From contig NZ_MSCN01000001.1 in the NCBI RefSeq assembly GCF_002954685.1, positions 2,374,429-2,438,428 on the forward strand: a DNA stretch of 64,000 nt, read 5' to 3'. The notes beneath the pieces were generated by a model. The model had not been told where the DNA came from. It worked only from the letters and a program-made list of their open reading frames with translations, and ran no database searches. A program made the translations under genes and the position numbers. Source of the stretch: Polaribacter porphyrae (GTDB lineage: Bacteria; Bacteroidota; Bacteroidia; Flavobacteriales; Flavobacteriaceae). Shown here piece by piece: positions 36,855 to 39,606 of this stretch; positions within the stretch are counted from its first letter, which is position 1; each line of letters begins with the position of its first letter.

Positions 36855-37433
36855 ATGAAATATTTAGTACTCATACTATCAACAGTAATTTTAGCAGCTT
36901 GTAACTCAAAAAAGTCTGCACTAGAATTAAAAACAGAAGTGATTAAAAGATTGCCAGCAAAAGAAGCAAATGCAGAAAAAAATGACCGAGGTTATTTAAT
37001 TGGAATTGCAAACAAAGAAATGTTTCAAGATCCAAGTTATAAAGGTTGGTATAACAGTAGGTATTCTGAATATAATGTTGATGAAGAAACTATCACTAAA
37101 TTAAAGCCAGTTATAAATAACTATACCATAAAAGGCTTTATGGGAACTTGGTGTGGTGATAGTAAAAGAAATGTGCCTCGCTTTTACAAAATTTTAGAAG
37201 AAGCAGGTTTTGATGAAAATTATTTTGAATTGGTTACAGTAGGTAGAAATAAAAAAACACCAGATAATCTTCAAGAAGGATTTGATCTTTTACGAGTACC
37301 AACTTTTATTTTTTATAAAAATGGAAAAGAAGTAGGTCGTTTTGTAGAAAGGCCTAGAGAAACTATAGAAAAAGATATTCTAAAAATTGTTACAGGAGAA
37401 CCTTATAAACATTCTTATGATAAGAGTGAGTAA
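36855..37433 (+). CDS. Thioredoxin-fold lipoprotein with CxxS active site
   Basis: The 192-residue protein has a lipobox (ILAAC16). Its thioredoxin-fold core shows GFMGTWCGDSKRNVPRF, where the usual CxxC is C100-G-D-S103. The lack of the second cysteine suggests monothiol chemistry or a glutaredoxin-like function, not disulfide shuttling. The later PTFIFYKNGKEVGR segment is the cis-proline region. Probably periplasmic, facing an outer-membrane partner. It follows gpmI by 2 bp. Confidence 0.85.
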   Translation: MKYLVLILSTVILAACNSKKSALELKTEVIKRLPAKEANAEKNDRGYLIGIANKEMFQDPSYKGWYNSRYSEYNVDEETITKLKPVINNYTIKGFMGTWCGDSKRNVPRFYKILEEAGFDENYFELVTVGRNKKTPDNLQEGFDLLRVPTFIFYKNGKEVGRFVERPRETIEKDILKIVTGEPYKHSYDKSE

Positions 37434-37439
37434 TCAAAA

Positions 37440-37503
37440 AACACAGATTTCACGGATAACTGCCTCATAAGAATCCGTGAAAGTTTGTAAAATCCGAGTC
37501 AAA
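37440..37503. repeat. Decayed copy of the GxxExxY-element inverted repeat
   Basis: Positions 37477-37503 match 23 of 27 bases of the right inverted repeat at 38811-38837. Positions 37443-37456 match the inner part of the left repeat with one deletion. The two halves face each other around 20 bp, forming a hairpin without any gene inside. It looks like the remnant of the same element family, just upstream of map. Confidence 0.65.
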
Positions 37504-37534
37504 AACCCTCACTAATAATTATCAATAAATATAG

Positions 37535-37542
37535 TAACTTTG
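37535..37542 (+). promoter_or_regulatory. -7 box of the map promoter
   Basis: TAACTTTG matches the Bacteroidota -7 consensus TAnnTTTG. It lies 18 bp before ATG 37561 and overlaps a TTG that would otherwise extend the frame, so it supports the downstream ATG. No clear -33 TTG at the usual distance was found. Confidence 0.6.
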
Positions 37543-37560
37543 CGTTTCAATTTTTTCAAT

Positions 37561-38373
37561 ATGATTAAAATTAAAACCAGAGAGGAAATAGAAATTATGC
37601 GTGAAAGTGCATTAATTGTTTCCAAAACTTTAGGTATGCTTGCCAAAGAAGTAAAACCTGGGGTTACTACTTTATATTTAGATAAACTTGCAGAAGAGTT
37701 TATAAGAGCTCATGGAGCAGTTCCTGGTTTTTTAGGTTTGTATGATTTCCCAAATACACTTTGTATGAGTCCAAACTCACAAGTAGTCCATGGATTCCCA
37801 ACTAAAGAACCTCTTAAAGAAGGTGATATTATCTCAATAGATTGTGGTGCTTTAAAAAATGGGTTTTATGGAGATCATGCATACACATTTGCTGTTGGTG
37901 AAATTGATGAAGCCACAAAAAATTTACTAGATGTTACTTTAGAGAGTTTATACGTCGGTATTCGTGAATTTAAGGCTGGAAACAGAGTTGGCGATGTTGG
38001 TTTTGCAATTCAAAATTTTACAGAAAAACATGGTTATGGAGTTGTAAGAGAGTTGGTAGGTCATGGATTAGGACGTAAAATGCACGAAGACCCAGAAATG
38101 CCAAATTACGGAAGAAGAGGAAGAGGAAAAAAATTTGCTGAAGGAATGGTTGTGGCTATTGAGCCAATGACAAATATGGGTACGCATAAAATAAGACAAC
38201 ATGCTGATGGCTGGACAATAACAACTTTAGACAATAAACCTTCAGCTCATTTTGAACATGATGTTGCTATTGTCAATGGAAAACCAGAATTGCTTTCTAC
38301 TTTTAAATATATAAATGAGGCTTTGGGTATTGTTACTGATGTAGAGAATGAATTTCGACAAGAGATTATTTAA
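37561..38373 (+). CDS. map: Methionine aminopeptidase type I
   Basis: The 270-residue metalloprotease removes the initiator methionine from nascent proteins. Metal ligands are seen in SIDCGA, GDHAYTF, GHGLGRKMHE, AIEPM and AHFEHD. The frame can be extended to a TTG at 37540, but that codon lies in the promoter -7 box, so ATG 37561 (MIKIKTREEIEIM) is chosen. The family N-terminus agrees. It is flanked on both sides by copies of the GxxExxY-associated repeat. Confidence 0.95.
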   Translation: MIKIKTREEIEIMRESALIVSKTLGMLAKEVKPGVTTLYLDKLAEEFIRAHGAVPGFLGLYDFPNTLCMSPNSQVVHGFPTKEPLKEGDIISIDCGALKNGFYGDHAYTFAVGEIDEATKNLLDVTLESLYVGIREFKAGNRVGDVGFAIQNFTEKHGYGVVRELVGHGLGRKMHEDPEMPNYGRRGRGKKFAEGMVVAIEPMTNMGTHKIRQHADGWTITTLDNKPSAHFEHDVAIVNGKPELLSTFKYINEALGIVTDVENEFRQEII

Positions 38374-38378
38374 AAAAG

Positions 38379-38837
38379 TTTGACACTGATTTCACAGATT
38401 TTCACGGATTAAAAAATTGCTAAATAATATGGACAATCTACTTTATAAAGAAGATACTTATAAAATTATAGGTCTTTGTATGGAAGTTCATAATCAGTTA
38501 GGCAAAGGTTTTAATGAGGTGGTTTATAGTGATGCTCTTGAAATAGAGTTTATTGACAATAATATTAAATATTCCAAAGAACAAAAATTTAACATCAATT
38601 ATAAAGGAAACATTCTTCCTCACAAATACAGAGCAGATTTTATAATAAACGATAAAATAGTTTTAGAAATTAAAGCAATAAAATGTTTAACTTCATCTCA
38701 CGTAAAACAAACCTTAAACTATTTAGCAGTTTCTAAATTGAAAATAGGCTTATTGATTAATTTTGGAGAAGATAGTTTAAAATATCAAAGAGTAATTCTA
38801 TAATTTATCAGTGAAAATCTGTGAAATCCGTGTCAAA
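38379..38837. mobile_element. 459-bp inverted-repeat element carrying a GxxExxY gene
   Basis: The left repeat 38379-38409 and the right repeat 38807-38837 are inverted copies matching at 29 of 31 bases. They enclose one GxxExxY gene and little else. A decayed copy lies at 37440-37503. The layout resembles a non-autonomous, cassette-like or MITE-like insertion. No transposase is present and no target-site duplication could be assigned with certainty. The right repeat contains GTG 38821 and GTG 38830, the only plausible starts of the next gene. Confidence 0.75.
38429..38803 (+). CDS. GxxExxY protein
   Basis: The 124-residue protein carries the family motif as GFNEVVY, after EVHNQLGKG. The HKYRADFIINDKIVLEIKA segment gives D-(x)n-ExK, consistent with the PD-(D/E)XK nuclease-like fold attributed to this family. 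A TTG at 38417 would add four residues, but ATG 38429 is preferred. It is embedded in the inverted-repeat element. Function is not established; small, widely dispersed in Bacteroidota and Planctomycetota by family knowledge. Confidence 0.88.
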   Translation: MDNLLYKEDTYKIIGLCMEVHNQLGKGFNEVVYSDALEIEFIDNNIKYSKEQKFNINYKGNILPHKYRADFIINDKIVLEIKAIKCLTSSHVKQTLNYLAVSKLKIGLLINFGEDSLKYQRVIL

Positions 38838-39606
38838 CAAAATATTCAAATCCATACTAAACAAAATACCAAGACCATTACTAATTAAAGTCAGTTATTT
38901 GGTACGTCCAATAATAGCTTTTACTTTAAGAGGTAATAGATTTACAGATCCAATTGATGGGAAAAGCTTTCGTAAATTTTTACCTTATGGTTATGGAAAA
39001 CAGCGTGAAAATGCACTTTCTCCATCAACATTATCATTAGAAAGACACAGATTAATGTGGCTGTTTTTACGTGATGAAACTGATTTTTTTATATCCGAAG
39101 AAAAACAAAAAGTACTACATATTGCACCTGAACAATGTTTTTTAGACATCTTCAGAAAACAAAAAAATTTAGATTATATCACTTCAGATTTAGAAAGCCC
39201 AATTGCAGATGTAAAAGCAGATATTTGTAACTTACCTTTTAAAGACAATGAGTTTGACGTTGTGTTCTGTAATCATGTTTTAGAACACATTTCTGATGAC
39301 ACTAAAGCTATGCAGGAGTTATTTAGAGTGATGAGAAAAGGTGGTTTTGGTATTTTTCAAATTCCACAAGATACTTCAAGAAAAACAACTTTTGAAGACA
39401 ACTCTATCACAGATAAAAAAGAAAGAGCTAAAATTTTCGGGCAATATGACCATGTGAGAGTTTATGGTTTAGATTATTTTGATAAGTTGAGGAGCGTAGG
39501 TTTTACAGTAGATGAAGTTGATTTCACTACGAAAATATCATCAGAAAAAATTGAAGAATTTTGCTTAATGAAAGGAGAAATTTTACCCGTTTGTTACAAG
39601 AAATAA
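38821..39606 (+). CDS. Class I SAM-dependent methyltransferase
   Basis: The 261-residue protein has VLHIAPEQC as a motif I-like segment, an acidic SDLES, and VVFCNHVLEHISDDTKAMQE followed by RVMRKGGF, typical of Methyltransf_11/25 domains. The substrate is unknown. The first residues (from GTG 38821 or GTG 38830) are encoded by the right repeat of the upstream element. There is no downstream ATG before residue ~78, so the element seems to have replaced or supplied the native start. The IPRPLLIKVSYLVRP segment is family-like. Confidence 0.85.
   Translation: MKSVSNKIFKSILNKIPRPLLIKVSYLVRPIIAFTLRGNRFTDPIDGKSFRKFLPYGYGKQRENALSPSTLSLERHRLMWLFLRDETDFFISEEKQKVLHIAPEQCFLDIFRKQKNLDYITSDLESPIADVKADICNLPFKDNEFDVVFCNHVLEHISDDTKAMQELFRVMRKGGFGIFQIPQDTSRKTTFEDNSITDKKERAKIFGQYDHVRVYGLDYFDKLRSVGFTVDEVDFTTKISSEKIEEFCLMKGEILPVCYKK

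Follow-up and report, generated by a model that had tools for sequence, protein, structure and literature searches.

A GxxExxY nuclease gene set within matching inverted repeats may belong to a type of mobile repeat system that has been overlooked

Among the closest described counterparts of the feature analyzed here are the RAYT/REP/REPIN systems, and the comparison with them is drawn from PMC8049555, PMC8266576 and PMC3733652. PMC8049555 and PMC8266576 describe a chromosomal nuclease gene accompanied by short inverted repeats, gene-less inverted pairs together with decaying singlets, and repeats that are commoner where the gene is present and are not seen on plasmids. The GxxExxY locus presented below resembles these systems on these points. 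It lies in a window of 64,000 nucleotides (the whole stretch of DNA that was analyzed) from Polaribacter porphyrae. Neither a published account of repeats flanking GxxExxY genes nor a study of GxxExxY function was found in the open-licence PMC literature; the word GxxExxY appears in two papers there, one of them PMC8934634, and PF13366 in one.

The element occupies the gap between map and a methyltransferase gene (Table 1). The original prediction described inverted ends that match at 29 of 31 bases and enclose only a GxxExxY gene. This core was recovered exactly, and the arms extend beyond it to 35 nt each, with 91% complementarity. GxxExxY is the sole gene between them, and profile searches match its product to TIGR04256 with 141.2 bits (curated cut-off 35) and to PF13366 (PDDEXK_3) with 129 bits. 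As first noticed, no transposase was found between the arms, either among the open reading frames or by profile search. Both candidate GTG starts of the methyltransferase do fall within the right arm, and the reported lack of an early ATG also holds, the next in-frame methionine being residue 79 of the frame that opens at 38821.

Table 1. Coordinates of the element and its neighbors in the window
Feature	Position	Strand	Description
Gene-less small hairpin with arm-type units	37441..37503	.	Left arm 37441-37459, right arm 37472-37503; 5' of map
map, type I methionyl aminopeptidase	37561..38373	+	Left host flank; TIGR00500, 293 bits
Left arm	38378..38412	+	Three iterated units CAC-TGATTT CAC-AGATTTT CAC-GGAT; outer end GTTTGACAC
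GxxExxY gene	38429..38803	+	124 aa from ATG; predicted PD-(D/E)XK nuclease; TIGR04256 and PF13366 matches
Right arm, inverted copy	38804..38838	-	Outer end GTGTCAAAC
Further in-frame GTG candidate of the methyltransferase	38821	+	Inside right arm
Methyltransferase (Methyltransf_11)	38830..39606	+	GTG at 38830 is in line with where the gene begins in element-free relatives

The arm sequence is also found away from the gene. Allowing 3 mismatches, a 22-nt stretch from the core of the arm matches the window three times, against 0.00 expected from shuffles, and the third of these is part of the gene-less hairpin 5' of map. The window genome, which holds one PF13366 match, contains nine three-unit arms when 2 mismatches are allowed, including the element's own two; the reversed-pattern control gives 0. 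Among congeneric loci that reach 5' of map, an inverted pair of the unit pattern occurs only in genomes G000 and G069, and inspection by eye adds a degenerate pair in G073 and a degenerate half in G009. All four of these genomes carry the gene at the map site.

The catalytic D...ExK and the nuclease-fold matches place the GxxExxY protein in the PD-(D/E)XK superfamily. Residues E30, Y33, D70, E80 and K82 are kept in all 180 distinct members, comprising 101/101 from the profile and neighborhood search, which had no ExK requirement, and 79/79 among the matches listed for a search whose pattern required ExK. Q94 is present in 98/101 of the former and in 79/79 among the ExK-patterned matches listed. 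The motif order E, D, ExK, QxxxY resembles that of Cas4/RecB-type nucleases. An AlphaFold model of the window protein has a mean pLDDT of 94.8, and its best solved fold is SSO0001 (4ic1), a Cas4. Foldseek gives E 1.7e-5 for this match, and VIA aligns 98 residues at 3.1 A with Z 10.0, the next row having Z 7.6. Cas4 proteins have conserved cysteines that belong to an Fe-S cluster. No invariant or near-invariant cysteine column was found in 48 GxxExxY members, which sets them apart from Cas4. T7 endonuclease I was considered as the nearest sequence relative and set aside, the match reaching only E 0.065. Y1_Tnp is absent from the 18 Pfam families matched by the 48 members (E 0.1), and the window protein matches only the PF13366 and TIGR04256 domains, with no Y1/HUH transposase domain. 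Among nine genes at the map site, the median dN/dS over 36 pairs is 0.20 (NG86; a rough value, many dS being near or above 1), which points to a gene under purifying selection.

Flanking inverted repeats recur around GxxExxY genes well beyond this site. Loci were taken from relatives, from at least 80 named loci and from the window's phylum. The frame reached 95 aa or more in 189 of the 194 loci (L024, L145, L192, L213 and L252 were shorter), 180 were distinct once nine duplicates were removed, and 176 had enough flank after four short-flank loci were left out; L032, a sub-cut-off match, was omitted as well. Each upstream flank was scored against the reverse-complemented downstream flank, with mismatched flank pairs as the control; the sampled loci are the best-scoring matches, hence non-random, and related loci are non-independent. 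Inverted repeats exceed the 95th percentile of the control at 124 of the 176 loci (about 9 expected) and the 99th percentile at 81 (about 2 expected). The corresponding counts are 113 and 74 of 163 with the map-site loci removed, 71 and 44 of 100 for loci from the profile and neighborhood search, and 53 and 37 of 76 for named loci among the matches listed. These listed matches span 24 phyla, of which 18 include a locus that exceeds the 95th percentile, mostly with one locus tested per phylum. When the largest other open reading frame was scored in 145 loci, 9 exceeded the 95th and 6 the 99th percentile; GxxExxY gave 100 and 68 in these loci (Wilcoxon p 9e-21). The remaining 52 of 176 genes have no repeat above the 95th percentile, indicating that some family members are unbracketed. 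GxxExxY was matched in 154 of the 296 sampled genomes of the window's phylum, and a single genome can have as many as 12 family matches when fragments are counted.

The arms are built from iterated 9-10-bp units. In the left arms of 77 loci the match frequency at lags 9 and 10 is 0.415 and 0.361, compared with 0.28 in shuffled sequence. The units read (C)RC-N-R-A and end in TT, G or A. Unit class was set against the protein tree for 94 loci, 30 of 124 having been dropped for want of a clear class. One protein clade of 40 rows contains 35 G-type loci and the other, of 54 rows, contains 1; the main split has SH-aLRT support of 98, and many inner forks are poorly supported. Changes between G and non-G number 7 on this tree versus a shuffled mean of 29.3 (minimum 24 in 200 shuffles). 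Within single genomes (9 multi-copy genomes, 28 loci) there are 3 changes versus 9.05 on shuffling, with 1 of 500 shuffles as low, so paralogues tend toward the unit of their own clade. Double units lie near 117 of 176 GxxExxY genes, 13 of 81 distant neighbors and 2 of 17 Y1-transposase genes (17 of 20 Y1 loci used). The recurrence across phyla and the way in which the unit follows the protein clade support the original prediction that arms and gene form one unit, with GxxExxY perhaps acting in its own mobility. As the window genome has a single such gene, it is other genomes that answer the question of further repeat copies around GxxExxY genes. The arms offer this nuclease a specific, clade-matched candidate DNA substrate, and this matching reduces the question of what it cuts to a binding and cleavage assay with built-in controls.

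Gene-less copies of the arms are dispersed through the genomes of relatives. Over 59 relatives, T-type tri-units (the genes' own arms included) number 143 in the 19 genomes with a PF13366 gene and 14 in the 40 without (Mann-Whitney p 6e-6, relatedness ignored). Similarly, a hand tally of G-type two-unit copies gives 91 in genomes with the gene and 8 in those without. Taken one by one, the dispersed copies include some inverted pairs and many single arms in place of complete ends; a uniform reading of them as MITEs was dropped because many are single arms. T- and G-type arms co-localize, in 5 of 18 clusters in G013 (0.04 expected) and in 4 of 8 in G009 (0.01 expected). G009 carries 12 T-type and 15 G-type copies, and the presence of T-type copies in such G-clade-only genomes means that solo copies do not always match in class.

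Several further observations concern the layout of these copies. On contig 1 of G009, 11 of 12 T-type arms lie on one strand, and tandem arm arrays with a spacing of roughly 40-60 bp occur at L075 (G017:C24) and on G017:C7 and C22. The dispersed arms of L312-L340 have an ATG-started open reading frame within 60 nt of the outer end in 14 of 67 cases and of the inner end in 4 of 67 (a rough count with overlapping arms); arms may favor the space just 5' of start codons. The interior of L333, a gene-less GxxExxY-type pair, holds an unrelated second hairpin (GTCATTTCGACGATAGGAGAAATCTC...). Relatives of the window protein were found in 8 of 72,556 plasmid records and 0 of 50,697 phage records (E 1e-5), a search made with one T-clade query that may miss distant members. 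Horizontal transfer was considered for L007 and L008, which encode identical proteins in two species, and was set aside, the region being colinear at about 80-91%. No arms were found at these two loci, which therefore yield no element boundaries.

The map-methyltransferase junction was compared across 57 loci from 56 congeneric genomes. In the junction alignment L052 and L091 lacked an anchor and L078 and L082 were left out; five duplicates (L093-L097) were excluded from the map-site set. The map gene lies upstream of the methyltransferase at all 57 loci, and a GxxExxY match falls between the two at 15. At 14 of the 57 the frame is intact (120-128 aa), and these genes belong to two divergent clades; L052 is partial. 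L039, L052, L063 and L066 look like decayed states. Two pairs of close relatives, G033/G059 and G060/G062, were compared. At the map site the genes of G033 and G060 belong to one clade, and those that G059 and G062 have at the identical position belong to the other. The G059 and G062 genes are about 42% identical to the window protein, the two clades standing at about 40%. Flank identity on the map side is 96.6% for G033/G059 and 92.3% for G060/G062, and on the methyltransferase side 91.8% and 90.0%. The breakpoints between the cassettes fall at the map stop on the left and at methyltransferase codons 3-4 on the right. A second intergenic site (G033:C1, about 1,503,430) has T-type hairpins in G033 and G059, a degenerate form in G073, a G-type CGCAAAG hairpin in G062 and a mixed arrangement in G060.

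Neither a target-site duplication nor an exact empty site was established at the junctions compared. L051 has an element with repeated host-flank pieces on both sides, and L060 has none. Between the cupin stop and the methyltransferase start of L051, the flank pieces GATTATAAATG and GTGTCTATCTTTAAA recur on either side of the element, as if a flanked cassette had landed within another. These repeated pieces suggest recombination over simple cut-and-paste. The gap is a hotspot for several insertions. A small open reading frame occupies it in L054, L060 and L051 (translated) and, by eye, in L053, L069, L071 and L088; that of L054, the only one tested, is a Cupin_2, and L051 holds both a cupin and GxxExxY. 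In addition, L197 (G274, from another genus) has a G-clade GxxExxY gene directly 3' of a map homologue.

The original prediction was that the element appears to donate the start codon of the methyltransferase, and it proposed a comparison with strains that lack it. In many element-free congeners map and methyltransferase almost abut, and the methyltransferase starts mostly with GTG, TTG or ATG, with TCN as the next codon and hydrophobic-F-K codons after it; GTG-TC starts are found, for instance, in L040, L042, L047, L067 and L073. The GTG at 38830 in the window clade is the homologue of this element-free start, with AACAAA as extra bases after GTGTC. The clade thus reads GTG-TCA-AAC-AAA, six bases more than most element-free relatives, and L066, which has no gene, shares this reading and looks like a scar. 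Since element-free relatives carry an equivalent start, the start within the arm was not created by the element; the outer GTGTC of the arm coincides with a methyltransferase start that relatives have without it. What stands of the prediction is that the first codons switch upon cassette exchange: close relatives with a T-type or a G-type cassette differ in start and first codons (GTGTCTATT versus ATGAAATTT), the methyltransferase beginning with GTGTCTATT in one pair and with ATGAAATTT or ATGAAACTC in the other.

The arms could owe their movement to some other enzyme, for example to a Y1/RAYT-type transposase that works in trans, with GxxExxY as a passenger or domesticated cargo. Y1_Tnp genes occur in 24 of the 59 relatives, 15 of which also have GxxExxY, and by hand tally those 15 genomes hold 138 of the 157 T-type copies. 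The nine Y1-only genomes hold just 2, yet the four GxxExxY-only genomes hold just 5, and the 31 genomes with neither hold 12. Y1 genes are not flanked by units in the way that GxxExxY genes are, and the unit class tracks the GxxExxY clade inside single genomes. A Y1 transposase as the mover is weakened by these observations, and we consider this account unlikely. Alternatively, the system might serve the host. Its arms would then be hairpins with a regulatory or terminator-like role, or sites used in chromosome upkeep or in defence, and GxxExxY would be their cognate nuclease with no real mobility. Purifying selection on the gene, the near absence of its relatives from plasmids and phages, and the rough excess of outer over inner arm ends near ATG-started frames would suit such a role. 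Its sporadic presence, the decayed copies, the cassette differences and the dispersed copies look selfish instead, and we consider a purely host-serving function rather improbable.

Under an RNA-level explanation, modelled on 23S rRNA intervening sequences, the arms would form the stem of a processed transcript. This would be in keeping with one small ORF between long inverted repeats, and a four-helix-bundle (23S IVS-type) family has comparable arms. On the gene strand, however, arm mismatches at 81 loci comprise 93 G-U-compatible and 92 A-C transitions. This balance, free of wobble bias, does not point to an RNA stem under selection, and the RNA-stem reading was rejected on it. A stem has no need of iterated units within one arm, and an Rfam scan of 37300-39100 returned no match; we regard this as the most improbable of the explanations considered. 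A vertical relic is also conceivable, with the gene ancestral beside map and the present pattern reflecting loss and drift of neutral repeats. The intact gene at 14 map-methyltransferase loci and its position right after map in the different genus of G274 speak for such descent. Against it, two clades at about 40% identity share the site in species whose flanks are 90-97% identical, and unit-protein tracking holds across phyla. Different cassettes between alike flanks are hard to reconcile with a relic, which we consider very unlikely.

In the reading that we prefer, with modest confidence, the window contains one copy of a nuclease-repeat system that resembles REP/RAYT but uses an unrelated nuclease; binding, cutting and recombination as the copying step are the parts that we infer. 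The GxxExxY protein would recognize the iterated C-R-C-N-R-A units both in the arms of its own gene and in the dispersed gene-less copies, and would nick or cut at them. Host recombination or gap repair could then copy or exchange the cassette at sites that already carry units or a similar stretch, which here would be the methyltransferase start with its GTGTC. Solitary arms and hairpins without a gene would be by-products or decaying remnants. A small Cas4/RecB-type PD-(D/E)XK nuclease would thus stand in for the Y1 transposase. A broader and more tentative proposal, to which we give slightly less than even weight, is that GxxExxY genes with their unit arms are phylum-spanning selfish elements. 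In these, a single Cas4-like nuclease would co-evolve with its own iterated recognition units. It would spread both cassettes and solo arms through break-induced exchange wherever units are already present, and neither a transposase nor an integrase would take part. The four-helix-bundle (TIGR02436) genes may form a second, parallel class. The GxxExxY system could also underlie some of the short palindromes that litter the intergenic DNA of these bacteria.

Known systems each share some of these traits. The predicted fold of GxxExxY is like that of Cas4/RecB-type nucleases (SSO0001, lambda exonuclease, LHK-Exo); unlike Cas4, it has no conserved Fe-S cysteines and the element has no cas genes. 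The 23S rRNA intervening sequences with their S23 ORFs likewise have one small ORF between inverted repeats, but the GxxExxY protein is unrelated, the units are different, there is no RNA-pairing signature, and the window element lies between map and methyltransferase, outside rRNA. Four-helix-bundle TIGR02436 loci (L216-L245) also show iterated inverted arms, with units GTATTAAGTATTAAG, GGTTATTAG and GTGAACGGTGAAC; 13 of 29 score above 12.5 and 6 of 29 above 16.4 (control 95th and 99th percentiles 12.5 and 16.0), and G000 has four TIGR02436 genes. With IS elements and MITEs the GxxExxY element shares a short single-gene unit, terminal inverted repeats and gene-less derivatives; it differs in having no transposase domain and internally iterated arms, and no target duplication was found at the junctions compared, but L051 carries repeated host-flank pieces. 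RAYT/REP is the parallel that the preferred reading follows. As in a REPtron, dispersed pairs and singlets of GxxExxY repeats are more numerous where the gene is present. The differences are that GxxExxY is a PD-(D/E)XK protein rather than a Y1/HUH transposase, that its arms consist of 9-10-bp iterated units, with GTAG absent from both window arms, and that it reaches up to 12 matches per genome, fragments included, whereas RAYT is described as single-copy. The GxxExxY system could show that REP/RAYT-like pairings of repeat and nuclease arose more than once, from unrelated enzymes.
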